Shown here: in pieces, positions 54,432 to 63,549 of the stretch
Layout of the letters: every line of letters begins with the position of its first letter
How positions within the stretch are numbered: the first letter of the stretch is position 1
NCBI GenBank assembly: GCA_950295325.1
Contig: OX485809.1
Location: 15,562,001 to 15,626,000 of the forward strand
From: Polytrichum commune
Lineage: Eukaryota; Streptophyta; Polytrichopsida; Polytrichales; Polytrichaceae
DNA length: 64,000 nucleotides
Reading direction: 5' to 3'
Program-made: the position numbers and the translations under genes
Notes under the pieces: generated by a model
Seen by the model: the letters and a program-made list of their open reading frames with translations, nothing else
Told to the model about the DNA's origin: nothing
The model's database searches: none

Positions 54432-57400
54432 TAGTCATTGGTTGGAGTAGCAATATATGTACGAACAAATGATAGGGTATTTTTAAAACATGGGGGCTAA
54501 AAATTATAAATGGACTTAAGAGTAATATAGGGTATCAAAAATGGCACTGGACATCTTTAAAGTACTATAGGGTATGGAATAATAGGTAATTTGGAATTAT
54601 AAGTAATGCAAGCCATTTTTCTATTAACCCAAAGTAGAAATTTACATAATGATAGCATGTGGAAAAAATAAGAGAATTGAAAGTAATACCCCCCTATAAA
54701 ATAGTGGTTGTTCGCACCTATATCCTTAACTTTTTAACACACTGCCCCCCCCCCCCCCCGAGATTGAAAACCAACGTCCTTTAACGCAAAAACCTCCTCA
54801 TGTGTAAGGTTTGTTCCAACCTTGACTGTCCACATAGTCGAAAGACTCAACCAATCAAGCACCGGTCCCACTTCTTCTTGCTACCCTTCATGCAACGGTT
54901 GATTTCATTTGCGCAAAACCAAAAATCAATAGGTATGTGGTTGTTGGAACGAAATTTATTCTTCAAACCTCTATAAGTTGGCGCTAGTGTGCCTTGTTTA
55001 CTCTTCCCCATGTTACCTTGCATGGATGACTTGTGTTGGCATGCAATGCTTGGCATTTGTTTTTGAGGAATAAAACAATATAGAAATCCAACTCTAGCAC
55101 ATTAGTGGTGTGGGACACCACATTCTCATAATGTTTAAAGGATTCTCCAATGTGAGCCCTAGTCCACTTCCTGGTTGGGCAAGGAATGGAGTAGTTCACC
55201 TTGGCAGGATGATGTGAATCATACTCAAAGTCTGGAAGCAAGTCTAGTTTCCTTTTGGTCGAATTCTAAAATCCAGACCCATTGAGCAAGCATCTCCTTG
55301 TGTTTAGATCATTTCACACCGGAATATGACCTCATAGCCTCTACAAATAGTTTGGGATCATTGGTGGTTGCTGCAACTTTAAGCTTCAATGATGCATTGT
55401 CTTGCCTTTTCCCATAGAGCCCCCTTTAACCCACGAATGGTAACTAGAGATTTGCATGAGTGTCTAGATTATGTCATCCACCGTTGCCTCATACATGCAT
55501 GTCAATTAGGCCCATAATTGATTCATCCACTTGTTATGCACCATTTTTGCGAGGCTGCAAGTAGGCATCTCAACCCGTGTTCCAAAGTGAGATCATGCAT
55601 CACAAGTTAGAAAACAATTTTAATAAAGTCCAATAAAATGAGATTGTCGTACAATCGTCGACACAACACAAATTTGGAAATCAAACACTTACAATGAGTT
55701 GTAACCTCCCCATTGTCTATACAAAAATTTCCAAAATGCCAACCAATTAGACAAGGTGTACATATCTTCCTATGTGGTTGCATTTGAGGACAACCACCAA
55801 ACATGAATCACATGGTAGTTGATGTCAACATCTTTCATAGTCTTGGCGTTATTGTATTCCTTACAGAGCTGCTTGTGTTGATGTTTTGATCAATAGGAAG
55901 GTTTGATGTGTTTTTGTGTTATCTTATCTAGGTTGGCGGACCACTAGAAAAGACAAGTACGTTCACAACCCTCCATAGGATCACTATCACCATAAATCTG
56001 CCTCACAGCAATCCAATTTGCATGTGCACTATCTGCCATGAACCCCTTGAAGTTGATGTCAAGGGCACCAATATCCATCATGACAACATTAAGGTTTCCC
56101 AAAAAGTAGTTTGAGTATGTGCGTCCTTGAATAGTATATCACATTAGGCTATGGTGAGAACCTTGCAATGCTTGATGTTGTAGACATGGCACACCATCGT
56201 GGTCCAATGGCAAAAGGCGCTCAACGTGGTCCAACATAATCCACGAGTCTTCCATAACTCTTCCACATTGCATGCGTCTCACCATATCACTCCACTTCCA
56301 TCAAGGTCTGCATATAGTTTGAATAGAAACACCTTATCTTTGGATTGCCATGGGAACCGACCATCATGCACATACTTGAACCCAAAGTGGTCTTAAAATG
56401 CCATGATACTATCCATGAAACCCATCCCACTACGAATCAAACGCTTTGAAACAACCACAAAATTTATGCAGTTAGGGATGCAAGGATGGAAATCTCTCCA
56501 TCACCACCTCCAATGATGCTCCCATGGAGGTGGTTCTTCTCCCCCGGGAAAGGGGACTAAAGGATGTAATGAACCAAAAATTGTTTATTGGCATCCGTAA
56601 GAACCCTTGAGCTCTTTGCAGTTGGAGTTTTAGACACCTCGTTGGATACACATTGGAAAACAATGTCCAATGATTCATGGCACACTCGAATGTCCACTAG
56701 GTGGTTGTGAACACAAAGATGGATACATGCAAGTCGGAATCCCAAAGATTGGGAATGAATTTAAATGTTTTTTGCATGACAATTTGCAAGACAAATGGAG
56801 GGACCGACAAACCTAGCATTAAACCCTTGATTTCAAAAGTAGCTCCGATCCCGGGTAGTTCACTTAGTGCATTTAAAAAACGACATGCGGCAAAATATAG
56901 AGAGGATTAAATTTGTTTGACATAAAATTTATATAGATTTCCAAATAATGAAGGGTCCATTAAAAGTAGACAATCACATTACAAATAAGGTGGATAGGTT
57001 TAAAATGTGTGCCATTCTTCATCTTTTTGAATAATAATATAGGGTTGAAAATAAGGATCCTAGGATGTATGTTTAGTAGGATCAATTTTGTATGCATACC
57101 TCACAAGGGATGGATGAGTAATGGCTCATCGTTTGTCCAAGAATGGAAGAAAATTGTAGCACCCATTATTGATCATCTTCTTGCATTGTTGTTTGTTAAA
57201 AAATCACCTAAGGTTTTTTTTTCCTCAACTCCGCCGTGTTTTGTTGAAACTCCTCCTTGCTGAAGCTTATGGTAACAAAGTCTAGCAAGTATGTATTGTT
57301 GTAGTTGGTTTAGGATCTCCTTTGTAGAGCCTCCTTTGTAGTTGCTTTAGAATCGGGGGCGGCCATGAAGTTCTATATAGGGTTTCGATTTTCTTGGTTG

Positions 57401-57519
57401 AAGGTCTGACAATTGTTTTGGAGGCGGTTTCAGGTTTAGAGTTTCCATGTGTGGCTTGCGATTGATTGTTCCGCTTCTGCTGGGGCGGTTGTAGTGGTGT
57501 TTACGGCTAACAAGTAAAA

Positions 57520-57991
57520 TGAAGATGTGGACTATGGAAGGCGATTTTGTTGTGCCGCAATATTGCAACAAGTTAAAGGTTTTTGAGGAGGAAATGTACG
57601 CCTCGCTCAAGGTTTGTTCGGAAGAGAAATCGGCATTGGATCTTGAGCCGCTGCCACACCCAACAACCTTGAGGAGTGTGCCTCCAATTTGACACTTATC
57701 TTGCGTTTGGCCATCATCAACAACTGCCCGCAAGAATTTGTGAGCAACATGTTGGAATTTAGTACATTTTAGCTCGCACAAGTTGATGTCATTGTGTTTC
57801 CTCCACCTTGGCGTGCATTTCGAGGGTTGGCAATCGTCGACAGCTTCAACGCCCACATGGAGTTGTTGTGTAAGTCGTTGGTTTTGAATAACCCGATGCC
57901 CGACCACTTTCACACGAGCTCTTTTGCACGCCTCGACGTAATGGACCTCTATGCAATCTGTCTGCACCTCAAGTCAGGTTGGCCGCGATAA
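57520..57991 (+). pseudogene. Possible plus-strand coding remnant, unknown family
   Basis: I do not recognise it. A frame starting at 57520 (MKMWTMEGDFVVPQYCNKLK, acidic, 57 codons) is followed by a frame shift. A longer stretch then runs in the next frame (ILRLAIINNCPQEFVSNMLE, one stop, then VDVIVFPPPWRAFRGLAIVD and on to LDVMDLYAICLHLKSGWPR at 57991). The local GC content is higher than in the flanks, as in exons. The 206-codon minus-strand frame over the same bases has a less protein-like composition. It could equally be non-coding. Confidence 0.25.
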
Positions 57992-58773
57992 TGCTTTGTC
58001 CGTCATGGTGATGGTTCGATTGACAATGTGGGAGTATGAGTAACCCCTACTCTTAGATCTTGACATTTGTTTTTGTTTCTTTTTCTTTTTCTTTTGTTGT
58101 GAATTGCTTGTTTTTTTGCACTACAACAGATTGGGTATTTTGTGACTAGGGAAATATGACTGGGGATGACTGGTGACTACATGCAGTCACATTTTTCCAG
58201 GCCTCGACCTTTGGGGTGTACGAAATTCAAAAATATGACTCGCAGTCATATTTTATTGTCGTATTCGGCAAATGTACTGTATACGGCGTATGGGAACGAC
58301 GACTGCCTTTATAGGGAACGACGGGGAACGTGTATGGTGGACGCACAGTCATATGTGGCAGTCACATTTTTCTACGAGTCATATTCTTCAGTCACATTCT
58401 GACTAGGACCATTTTTTTCCTTTTTTTGGGCAGCCCTTGATAATTCAGGCTGCCCTAGACGGGCCTCTTGTGTTTTTGCCCCATGACTCATTATCTAGTA
58501 TTATGGTTTGGATTATTTATTTAATAATGAAAGATTTTGGTCAAAATTAAGTACTTTGTGTGTTATAGTACGAACGGCAATGAAAATTGGGAATGACCCA
58601 TGTTTATTTAATGAATAATTAATTGATTGATGTTTTAGGGAGTATAGGGGGGAAATTGGGGAGGAAATTTGATTCTTACTATTGCTAAAAGACTAATTGA
58701 ACATGTATATAATTGAACTTAAATATATACCCACCTAAGTTTCATTTATACAACTTCTTGCTCGGACGGGAAG

Positions 58774-59694
58774 TCAATCACCGTCCGAGTCGCAAAGCTC
58801 GGAGTCATCTACCGATGCGTCGTCCGGTCCCTCTAGACATTCTAATGCCTTGGCAACCATTCCTGGCCCTACTTCCATTGCATCGCCCAATATGGGTGTC
58901 TTCGGTACGATATCGTCATGTAAGGCCGTCACTTGTAATCCGGGAAAATCAGAAGTCCTACCTAGTGCTATGCATTGTACTTCATCGGTTCTTTGTTGTT
59001 TGGAGAATACCCGAACCCCTCTCGGTTCCTTACGCAAAACAACTTCCCATCCACTCTTCGCGACGTCAAGTGCAAAAAAAACTTGTTCGATATGGAGAGG
59101 AAATGCAAATGATTGTGCTGAGTAAGGAATCAATCTGTCAAAGTTTACAATGGTGAAACCATAGTCGTCGTGCTTCATCGTCGCCCCATCTCCCTTAATG
59201 TTTGCAACGACCCAATTGCAATAGAGGACCACCACCTCGAAGAATCCATAGTCCACAGAGAGTATTTCCTCAACCCAACCCACATACTCCAACTCCGCTG
59301 CCTTTGGATTTGTGTCCTTCAGGCCCGAGCGACATAATTGTCGAAATGTTGCGGCCACCCCAGAGTCCATCGTTGTCAATTGTGCCTGTGCGCTTCGGAC
59401 ACGGATGTGGTTTCCAAACGCATACATGGATCGATATGACTTCGCTGCATCCGATGGAGGTAACATCAAGGCCCTAACGTTTTCTTGTACCTCCTCAGTC
59501 CCTTCTTCTATGGCGCGCACCACTGCTTTTGGAAACAAATGTGGAAATCCTCGTCGCGCAACTCCGCTGGGTACATTACCCGCGCCTTCCGCTTCTTGCG
59601 CCTGTATTCGTGCCGCTCACATTCCCGCCGTGACATGTCATCCTCGTGTTTCCTGCATTTTGGATACAGCCCAACACATCATTACCCGTGACAT
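58774..59694 (-). pseudogene. CACTA transposase C-terminal part with DUF4216
   Basis: Last segment of the CACTA protein. An acceptor (AAAATGCAG) near 59694 starts a basic stretch (RRECERHEYRRKKRKAR). A frameshift near 59540 leads into 59538-58774 (RAIEEGTEEVQENVRALMLP, SYRSMYAFGNHIRVRSAQ). The DUF4216 core is GFFEVVVLYCNWVVANIKGD, DDYGFTIVNFDRLIPYSAQS and QVFFALDVAKSGWEVVLRKE. The tail is acidic and ends DDSELCDSDGD. DUF4216 regularly follows tnp2 and DUF4218 in plant CACTA proteins; its molecular role is unknown. The preceding intron (about 59695-59945) holds a dense block of transposon subterminal repeats. Confidence 0.75.
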
Positions 59695-59940: not shown

Positions 59941-60864
59941 TCACCTCCTCCACTCTTCTAGTGGTGCCGCATTGTTCACCACGAACTCATGTATCCATTG
60001 TCGAAGGTCGGATGGGAGATGACGCGTCCGCCCGCCACCTTCGAGGATCTCATCATACATTGATGGGTCTTCTTTGTCATCCCACACTCTTCGAGTGGTG
60101 ACTGTATATTCTTGCATATACTCCGTACAAAATCCCAATGCTTCTACTATGGCGTAGCCTTCAGCCATGCAACCCTCTGGTCGAGTACGGTTTCGGACAT
60201 ACCCTTTGAGAGTCTTTAGGTACCTCTCTATAGGGTACATCCAACGTGTATGTATGGGTCCACAAATTTCCACTTCCTCCACGAGATGCAGGACCAAATG
60301 GCTCATGATGTCAAAAAATGATAGCGGGAATTCTTTTTCCAACATGCATAGTGCTATGGCCGCTTCACACCTCATCTCATGTATTGTTGCGGAATCAATG
60401 GACTTAGTACACACCCTCCTGAATACACGGCTCAACATTATTATTGATGTCCGCACTTCCTTTTCCATTGTGCAGCGCACATATAGTGCCAACACTTGCT
60501 GCATGAGGACATGGTAGTCATGGGATTTCAGGCCTTTCATTGTCCCATCCACGTTAACGCGCTTCTTCAACTGTCCCACATAGTGAGTGGGGGTTCACAA
60601 TGCACGCACTTGCTTCACAAAGACTTTACGCTATTCTTTCGTCATAACGTAAGAGGATCGAGGTAGAATCATGCTACCGGGTTTTGTTCCTGCTACGGGC
60701 CAAAGATGCGGGCGTATACCCGCCTCCTTCATGTCTAGACGAACTCCAATTGTTGCCTTCTCTCCAAATATGGTTTTCATCACATTCTCAGCGATGTTTT
60801 TCTCACAGTGCATAACATCCAGTGTGTGTCGAATTAGAAGATCATGTACAGTGACTCGAGCCAA
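59941..60864 (-). pseudogene. CACTA transposase: end of tnp2 plus DUF4218, with two premature stops
   Basis: 60864-60634 matches the end of the tnp2 domain (LDVMHCEKNIAENVMKTIFG, RLDMKEAGIRPHLWP). The same frame continues through a TAG at 60631 and a TGA near 60598 into the DUF4218 part at 60579-59941 (KGLKSHDYHVLMQQVLALYV, HLVLHLVEEVEICGPIHTRW, MYPIERYLKTLKGYVRNRTR). The two stops lie in the linker typical of this family, so the frame was once continuous. A donor, AGGAG|GTGAGTTC, lies at the end. Product: inactive transposase fragment. Confidence 0.8.
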
Positions 60865-60984
60865 TGAGAAATTTGCCGGCGCGAATCACAATATCACTAC
60901 GTGCAATCATGTGACTGTACATGAATACGTCCACTCACATAATACTCATAAACAATATTACTATATGCAATCATGTGACTACGG

Positions 60985-61991
60985 GCCAAGTAGTTTTTGG
61001 TCACTAACCAAGGGGGGAGATTGTAGTTCAGCATGACCACGGGCCAAGTAGAGTGGCTGAGACTTTGGTTCCTAAATGGATTTACGCCATCCAGTGCAAG
61101 GCCAAGCCTAACGTTCCGTTCATCTTCCGCAAACCACGGCCACCTATTATTTACGTGGTCCCAAGCCTTCGAGTCCACCACGGACCTTATCACCTTGTCC
61201 TTACTTTTCCCTCCTACATGCCACTTCATTAGCTCCGCGATCCGTGTGCAGCTGTACATCCTTCGCAAACGAGGAATCAAAGGAAAATGTTTCAAAACTT
61301 TGACTGGAATTGTACTGGAGTTCTCTACAAAGTGCGATTTGTGGCATGTTGGGCACTCCGTTGCATTTTCCAATTCTTTCCGAAACAAACAACATCCATC
61401 TCTACACGCATGTATTGAGTTGTAGGACAACCCTAACTTCATCAACAAGCCTTTCGCCTCGTTAAATGATTTCGGTAGTGTGTTGTCATTGGGTAAAATT
61501 GTCTCCTTCAACAACTTCAACAACTCATCCACATAGTTGTTTGGTACGGCGAAGATGGTGCAACACAATAGTATCAAGAGTGTCGATGTGAGACGGTTCG
61601 AGGGGCTTCCCTCATACATTGGAGTTCCAGCTTCGTATAAGAGATTTTGGTGGTCTACCCCACTGGGGTCCTCACTGTTCATGGTACTCCCTCTTGTTTC
61701 CATGGGGTCATTCATTTCTTTCATTTCCCCCTCGCTACCATCATTGTCCCTCGTTGTGAAACCATCCTCCCCTTCATCGTCTTCAACCAATGCATCCCCG
61801 AGTCCCTCATGTATGGTGGCTTCGGTTTCGTGTCCGTCATAATTGAGGCCATCGTACTTGCCGAAGCACTCTGCCACCATACGTAGAACCTCAACTTCTC
61901 CATCATATCCATCGTTTGTGTTAGGGTATGTCTGGCTTCTTTGCCCAGTCCGCGGTGCATGGGAGAACAAGTCAATCGGGTTGTACTCGTC
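60985..61991 (-). pseudogene. CACTA transposase N-terminal tnp2 segment, core deleted
   Basis: The exon opens after CTCTGCAG at 61991 (DEYNPIDLFSHAPRTGQRSQ), followed by an acidic linker, then CPTCHKSHF, KVLKHFPLIPRLRRMYSC, MKWHVGGKSKDKVIRSVVDS, RLGLALDGVNPF and STWPVVMLNYNLPPWLVTKN, all tnp2 hallmarks. Similarity stops at KNY near 60985. The next recognisable tnp2 sequence (LDVMH) is only about 120 bp on, although well over a hundred residues normally lie between. The missing part includes the region expected to carry catalytic residues. The 60870-60984 filler holds a 27-bp near-perfect direct repeat (about 60890 and 60954) around TGCAATCATGTGACT. Confidence 0.8.
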
Positions 61992-62503: not shown

Positions 62504-63202
62504 CTACAATGCGGTGTGCGGGTTCAAAGAGTAGTGTGCATACAACTCTTCTCCGACCAAAATGTCCTTTGTGGCTAAGGTGATTACATACCCCCATTCA
62601 TGTTTGTTCCAGGATTTTGGCAACATGCGAAATTCCCACACCACATTTCCTATTTCTTTGCGTCCTATGAAACTATTTATGAAGCCAACGACATTCCCCT
62701 TCATTACATCTCCATCGATGTACAAGTCCGGCTCAACTTGCATCGCATATGACTTCACTCGAGGTTGTGCCTTCTTCAAAGCTCTGTATTCTCCCAAGGT
62801 GTATTGTGGTCCTACAAATGGAAGCATTTCCTCTCCCTCTTTGGCGGGTTGAAGTGCAAAGAGACCCCAACCCATGAATGGGAAGTTGGACACCCTTACT
62901 TCCCATTCTCTATTCCAGTATGAAAACTTTATAAGTTTTGGGATGGGCCCGTCACACCACTGTCCATCATACACGTTTGACCCCCATGTCTGCAAGGTTC
63001 GTATGACCCCCATGTCTGCAAGGCTCGTACTCTTGCAGACGTTGTGTTTGGCATTGACTGTGAAGGCGTTTCGTATCCTCCTAGAAACTTTCTCAGGGAT
63101 GTCTTGCAAGCAGCTTTTACAATGGGTCTCCATCGGGCCTACAAAATTCATGTACACAAAAATGAAAACTCGCTCATAGCAAGACCACCCGCTTACGCTC
63201 AT
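62504..63202 (-). CDS. SET-like domain reading frame inside the CACTA element
   Basis: SET domains are usually protein lysine methyltransferases that use S-adenosylmethionine. This frame (232 codons, no internal stop) shows SET hallmarks in order: FMGWGLFAL at 109-117 (GxG type), LPFVGP at 127-132 (YxGE position), DLYIDGD at 159-165, GNVVGFINSF at 169-178 (position of GNxxRFINHSC), NVVWEFR at 186-192, and TKDILVGEELYAHY at 211-224. The canonical NHxC is replaced by NSFI, so normal catalysis is doubtful. The part before residue about 75 may be out of frame because of a 26-bp tandem duplication. It lies between the transposase-associated and tnp2 segments, on the same strand, and could be captured host sequence. 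Whether it is expressed alone or spliced to the upstream exon is unknown. Confidence 0.6.
   Translation of the reverse strand: MSVSGWSCYERVFIFVYMNFVGPMETHCKSCLQDIPEKVSRRIRNAFTVNAKHNVCKSTSLADMGVIRTLQTWGSNVYDGQWCDGPIPKLIKFSYWNREWEVRVSNFPFMGWGLFALQPAKEGEEMLPFVGPQYTLGEYRALKKAQPRVKSYAMQVEPDLYIDGDVMKGNVVGFINSFIGRKEIGNVVWEFRMLPKSWNKHEWGYVITLATKDILVGEELYAHYSLNPHTAL
62979..63030. repeat. 26-bp tandem duplication in the SET-like reading frame
   Basis: GACCCCCATGTCTGCAAGG followed by TTCGTAT at 62979-63004 is repeated at 63005-63030 with two changes (CTCGTAC). 26 is not a multiple of three, so the frame upstream (minus strand) is shifted relative to the SET core. The alternative upstream frame (RPIVKAACKTSLRKFLGGYE) is also open. 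Confidence 0.85.
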
Positions 63203-63226
63203 TCAAAAGTCATTTCATGGAATGAC

Positions 63227-63421
63227 TCACCAAGATAGACGCTGTAAACACAGGGTCCCTTTTTTGCTGCGAAGATGCTTTCGGATTGTGGCTCGATCGA
63301 GGACTTTCCCTCCTGCACACTCCATGCATGGGCACTTGGATAGCCGCATTGCGTCTGCTTGGACCTCTTCTTCTTGCCATAACTGTAGATGCTTCAAGCT
63401 TTCGACCTCCCCTCCTGCCAT
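63227..63421 (-). pseudogene. CACTA transposase-associated zinc-binding-like exon
   Basis: Starts at an ATG at 63421 (MAGGEVESLKHLQLWQEEEV). It contains KCPCMECAGGKVLDRATIRK then HLRSKKG, the CPCxxC...H pattern of the transposase-associated domain that opens many plant CACTA proteins. A strong donor, TATCTTG|GTGAGTC, sits at 63231. I could not find an acceptor that joins it in frame to the SET-like frame as it now stands, in keeping with the nearby frame-shifting duplication. Confidence 0.55.
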
Positions 63422-63549
63422 CCTGTGGTGTGCACGGCATACGGGGCGGGTTAATTTGTGATATGGGGATACCTTACAAGGAGTGAGTGCTCACATGCGC
63501 GCAGTCACTTGAATATGTGGATACATACGAAAGGGGAGTCAAATAACCC

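Follow-up and report, generated by a model that had tools for sequence, protein, structure and literature searches.

A SET-domain exon within a family of CACTA transposons in Polytrichum commune

The element in the window

The window, which is the whole stretch of 64,000 nucleotides of Polytrichum commune DNA that was analysed (contig OX485809.1, positions 15,562,001 to 15,626,000), holds one end of a CACTA transposon together with a row of frames that all read on the minus strand. The end is a 30-bp CACTA terminal inverted repeat at 58119-58148 (+), located by a terminus search on the tnp2 side of the element; the opposite end lies outside the window. From upstream to downstream, the row begins with a transposase-associated (TAS) like exon at 63231-63490, which lies in a frame spanning 63227-63490 and, by comparison with related copies, carries a one-nucleotide frameshift. 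Its match to PF13963 (E 1.6e-4) is under the cut-off of that model. A GT-AG intron of 92 nt is predicted between this exon and the SET exon, at 63139-63230, and the same length was found in 18 of the 18 intact copies tested from the window's own subfamily (A). The SET exon follows at 62504-63138, from its predicted 3' splice acceptor to the stop. The tnp2 exon, counted from a predicted CAG acceptor, occupies 60897-61991 and has a deletion of about 0.6 kb in its core, and it matches PF02992 (E 1.5e-25) over positions 1-69 of the 213 in the profile only. In copy L042 the same model (tnp2, Transposase_21) reaches E 1.9e-73. A further transposase frame at 60631-60885, which related copies also have at this point of the row, separates tnp2 from a clear DUF4218 frame at 59941-60594 (PF13960, E 4.4e-36), and a DUF4216-like frame at 58774-59616 (PF13952, E 6.3e-6, just below the curated cut-off) completes the row. 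The order is as expected in related copies, and the SET frame does lie where the earlier note had placed it, between the TAS exon and the tnp2 exon and on their strand.

In the ORF list, 62504-63202 (-) is a single reading frame of 232 codons. Its description as a 232-codon SET frame is right in that the frame is open, but the length is partly accidental. Comparison with intact copies indicates that codons 1-21 are intron and that codons 22 to about 66 (about 45 codons) read the linker of the SET exon out of its natural frame. A 26-bp tandem duplication with approximate borders at 62975-63030 (-), recognised by a common 18-mer at 62980-62997 and 63006-63023, then brings the reading back into the SET frame. 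Given the intron codons, the out-of-frame codons and the duplication that rejoins the frames, the true SET part is only about 166 codons long. The view that the transposase is otherwise broken applies to the window element, with its truncated tnp2 and its shifted TAS and SET frames, but not to the family, in which many copies are complete.

The palindromic form of the subterminal repeat had no match in the window. Just outside the element end, at 57347-57973 (-), there is a 208-residue open frame with no Pfam match.

Identity and active site of the SET domain

The SET domain profile PF00856 matches the 62504-63202 (-) frame at E 6.2e-8 and 33.4 bits (cut-off 22.4), with residues 111-224 covering positions 1-104 of the 105 in the profile. 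This places the domain at 62531-62872 (-) of the window (genome place C7:15624531-15624872). Copy L044 scores 41 bits against the same cut-off, and when E-values of up to 1 are allowed the profile is matched by 28 of the 28 aligned members, the best at 9.5e-12. The profile search against SET families that had been proposed as a check thus returned matches, and the reading of this part as a SET domain is borne out. A search of the PDB with the family profile gave MLL/SET1, ASH1L, EZH2, NSD and SETD2 as the best chains (best E 3.8e-5); the single-sequence search was weak (best E 0.02).

When four host SET rows were included in the alignment, the structure model had a pLDDT of 66 and a pTM of 0.64, and it retrieved SET domains both with Foldseek (E 7.6e-7) and with VIA (Z 10.3, rmsd 3.3, 117 aligned). 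Prediction on the transposon family alone, with no host SET rows, was poor (pLDDT 37), so the fold evidence is supportive but not independent. None of the 50 VIA matches listed was a PRDM entry, which does not exclude PRDM, and the PR-domain profile PF21549 gave a weak match in 1 of the 28 members (E 0.009). An NCBIfam model of a bacterial effector was matched weakly (18-32 bits, cut-off 550), which we read as a general likeness to SET.

The GxG and GEELxxxY motifs of canonical SET lysine methyltransferases are present and the NHxC motif is absent. In our alignment (A1) GWG and the final Tyr are invariant and GEEL is nearly so, and GEELxxxY and the N of NHxC are kept. The earlier note reported that NHxC is replaced by NSFI, which holds for the window copy but not as a family motif. 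NSFI is found only in the window copy and its nearest relative (L040), with NSYI in one other decayed copy, and the intact copies read have INSS at this site (family motif NSSI). The loss of NHxC is a trait of the whole family and NSFI is a variant of these two copies. Since both the H and the C are missing from every intact copy read, canonical SET catalysis by the family is doubtful. Four older, decayed SET copies (L107, L110, L113 and L114) have INNS instead of INSS.

A genome-wide family with CACTA borders

A six-frame search of the genome that the window comes from (64 contigs, of which seven are large, with 408 Mb in all) gave at least 153 matches to the window frame at 114 or more separate SET places, both counts being lower bounds with 150 of 232 candidates scored. 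The identity of these copies ranges from 98% down to about 45%, and they fall into subfamily A (the window's own, mostly at least 90% identical), subfamily B (about 60%) and subfamilies C and D (about 50%). When the SET places are compared with the best 150 tnp2 matches, 72 of the 114 are followed on their own strand by a tnp2 at a distance of 906-2554 nt, and none has one on the opposite strand. The chance expectation is 0.1, and a chance association is thereby excluded. The 42 places with no tnp2 among those best 150 may still have one, as is the case for L041, L046, L049 and the window copy. For about 48 further SET copies the link to tnp2 comes from coordinates alone.

A SET-bearing CACTA family is present in the Polytrichum commune genome. 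A search for other CACTA copies with the same order had been suggested, and TAS, SET and tnp2 follow each other on one strand in all 13 of the long copies read from other loci. DUF4218 and DUF4216 come after tnp2 in 10 of these 13; in L046, L048 and L052 no match was found past tnp2 within the 9.5 kb read. In one copy, L049, an additional stretch of about 1 kb separates the TAS frame from the SET exon, at the place of the short intron of other copies.

The 30-bp CACTA terminus of subfamily A occurs at 115 places in the genome, compared to 0 for a control pattern. There are 32 pairs of inward-facing termini, and exactly one SET lies inside 25 of them, mostly in elements of 14-18 kb. The frame therefore recurs inside CACTA borders, rather than occurring once and outside them, and the placing of the window frame inside a CACTA element, upstream of the terminus at 58119, is upheld. 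Identical 3-bp flanks were seen at 9 of the 10 end pairs read, namely at one short SET-less element and at 8 of the 9 SET-bearing elements checked, all other than the window copy, where they form perfect 3-bp target-site duplications. Terminal inverted repeats starting with CACTA, the 3-bp target-site duplication, tnp2 and the TAS/DUF4218/DUF4216 set are the features of the CACTA (En/Spm) superfamily. The greater than 99% identity of some copies across 3.5 kb points to recent movement of the family.

The pairs of termini with no listed SET consist of six short ones (5.8-7.5 kb) and one of 17.6 kb. The short ones, at C2:53543159-53548991, C2:17528421-17534561, C6:39029013-39036030, C3:48730502-48737563, C3:45035958-45043158 and C4:12776107-12783570, are probably deletion derivatives. 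The long one, at C3:41448766-41466346, has the same termini and no SET place among those listed.

Gene structure and splice signals

Subfamilies A to D share the starting point of the SET frame, directly after a TGTAG acceptor, which in one of the 40 intact copies (L052) is replaced by TGTAT. In all 40 a GT donor stands in phase 0 right after the ...SIL that ends the TAS frame (SIS in one), and the distance from this donor to the SET exon is usually 88-117 nt (256 nt in two copies). Most intact copies have an intron whose length is not divisible by three (for example 92, 88 and 115 nt), and this argues against read-through. The SET exon also has its stop at a homologous place in all subfamilies, after YYxVN in B, C and D and after SLNPHT(A/T)L in A. 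We infer from these signals that the natural gene consists of the TAS exon, a short phase-0 GT-AG intron and the SET exon up to its stop; the SET part is then no free-standing frame but follows the TAS exon as an exon in phase 0.

The tnp2 exon starts after CAG, likewise in phase 0, in all four subfamilies, so the TAS exon could be joined to SET or to tnp2. No early ATG is conserved in the tnp2 exon, and both features suggest that the beginning of the transposase, like that of a TAS-SET protein, comes from the TAS exon.

Selection and origin

Pairwise dN/dS values were calculated by the Nei-Gojobori method on intact copies, which were chosen for their open frames, and the estimates lean towards constraint for that reason. 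Between diverged copies the SET ratio is about 0.16-0.3 and near the tnp2 values. The median is 0.24-0.27 between subfamilies (B-C, B-D and C-D) and 0.18 inside B, where the median dS is 0.65; in comparisons of A with the others dS is saturated. For the same pairs, where computable, tnp2 gives 0.13-0.28. Ratios well under 1 and similar to those of tnp2 indicate that the SET exon is kept by purifying selection much as the transposase is. The ratio rises among very similar copies, to about 0.4 in A and to nearly 1 in C, which fits copies that are young or in decay.

SET-less tnp2 lineages coexist in the same genome. In the best tnp2 tree the SET-bearing groups are clustered and do not form one clade, and a single clade is not rejected (p-AU 0.34). 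This test omitted two SET-less tnp2 loci that fall inside SET-bearing clades (L097 and L098, probable losses) and the incomplete L047, and it was not blind, because they were left out after the first tree was known. We favour a single gain of SET because the place and the phase of the exon are the same in all subfamilies. A close host donor did not emerge, the best host SET locus compared being only 23% identical to the family. A search for relatives in viral contigs gave 22 pattern matches, none of them confirmed.

Interpretation of the SET exon

The best reading of these observations is an element-encoded TAS-SET accessory protein that is PR-like and whose catalysis is uncertain. Splicing of the TAS exon to the SET exon in phase 0 would yield a TAS-SET protein about 265 residues long, with its end at the homologous stop, and skipping of the SET exon would join TAS to tnp2 and yield the transposase. 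TAS-SET would then share an N-terminal zinc-motif-like module with the transposase, and it may go to the element or to its transposition complex. There, the non-canonical SET could act on chromatin, either through an altered methyltransferase activity or through binding of histone tails or partners, and the element could profit by being relieved of silencing or by controlling transposition. On balance we lean towards this account, in which the TAS exon has two splice partners and TAS-SET acts on the chromatin of the element. The bolder form of it is more tentative, namely that the CACTA lineage encodes its own chromatin factor, an alternatively spliced TAS-SET that marks or shields element chromatin as a long-kept means of anti-silencing by a non-canonical SET.

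Alternatively, the SET could be a cassette within the transposase, with transcripts of the form TAS-SET-tnp2 and the SET fold serving as a structural or chromatin-targeting part. All three exons do join in phase 0, and subfamilies B, C and D have a GTRAAT just before the stop that might be a phase-0 donor. However, subfamily A lacks this possible donor, and the stop of the SET exon is found at its homologous place in all four subfamilies. Additionally, the residues after the possible donor (VN or LN) stay conserved while their codons differ, a pattern that suggests translation. We consider the cassette unlikely.

It is similarly improbable, in our estimate, that the main role of TAS-SET is to regulate transposition, for instance as a rival of the full transposase that also carries TAS, with the SET fold used for dimerisation or partner binding and no role in chromatin. 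Such a protein would have TAS in common with the transposase and could do without the lost NHxC. Short regulators made by alternative splicing are also known for CACTA genes, as in En/Spm (tnpA/tnpD) and the soybean Tgmt* element, where one gene gives a transposase and a shorter regulator (PMC2613891). There the splicing was demonstrated with RNA and the short protein has no SET, whereas here the splicing is predicted from the exon signals. What a regulator of this kind leaves unexplained is why the SET fold in particular stays selected, with GWG and GEELxxxY intact.

The earlier note had offered either a recent capture or a real function, and the second of these is favoured. Host gene fragments are captured by CACTA elements (PMC8978399), but a recently captured fragment carried with no function would hardly be expected in at least 114 copies, in subfamilies with a dS of up to about 2 that are still under purifying selection with open frames and a dN/dS well under 1, and with no close donor among the host SET loci compared; we regard this as very improbable. 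That the SET likeness is false or due to chance is scarcely credible, since the weak single-sequence PDB search stands against Pfam matches in every aligned member, SET proteins as the best PDB matches of the family profile and SET domains in the fold search.

Relation to known systems

It is not settled how plant transposons evade histone-based silencing or turn it to their use. To our knowledge, the element-encoded chromatin factors described in plants are few, and we know of no SET domain in the VANC proteins. These anti-silencing proteins of the Arabidopsis VANDAL (MuDR) elements, named in PMC12730594, are element-encoded and alter the element's own epigenetic state; the parallel is in the proposed function only, and they belong to the MuDR superfamily, unlike the CACTA family here. 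A parallel in principle only is given by SUVH2 and SUVH9, plant SET proteins that are thought to be catalytically inactive and recruit Pol V (PMC7617993). They are also probably non-catalytic and act in a transposon-silencing pathway, but they are host genes with an SRA domain. The PR domains of the PRDM family are likewise SET-like with no canonical NHxC, and some are reported to be active and others are suggested to be binding modules (PMC4146578). However, these are animal proteins, and a PR match was seen here in a single member.

The termini, the transposase and the order of the four basic domains are those of plant CACTA (En/Spm) elements with TAD, Transposase_21, DUF4218 and DUF4216 (PMC8978399). 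The difference lies in the added domain, which is SET here, whereas that survey of domain architectures highlights Transposase_24 and Peptidase_C48 and names a few others, SET not among them. We found no description of a SET-bearing CACTA element in the literature searched; Repbase and most subscription papers lie beyond it, so an earlier description is possible. HarbingerS elements and the MuDR elements of Phytophthora are reported to carry SET genes (Kojima and Jurka 2014, cited in PMC12730594). These are likewise DNA transposons with a SET-domain gene, compared here by that description and not by SET sequence, but they belong to other superfamilies and other hosts, and the element here has tnp2 (PF02992) and CACTA ends and no membership of Harbinger or MuDR. 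Going by the superfamilies named in that paper, the family would widen the SET-bearing DNA transposons from Harbinger and MuDR to CACTA.

In this plant CACTA lineage the SET part thus seems to be a stable coding exon and not a stray piece picked up by capture. Since many copies are nearly identical and have perfect termini, an open SET frame and splice sites that are conserved, the system can be tested.

Just to the right of the window, at C7:15628486-15631998 (L039:2486-5998, +), several frames are open on the strand not used by the transposase, and they read away from the transposase. Seven were tested and none was over a Pfam cut-off; they look like exons of a second gene of the element.
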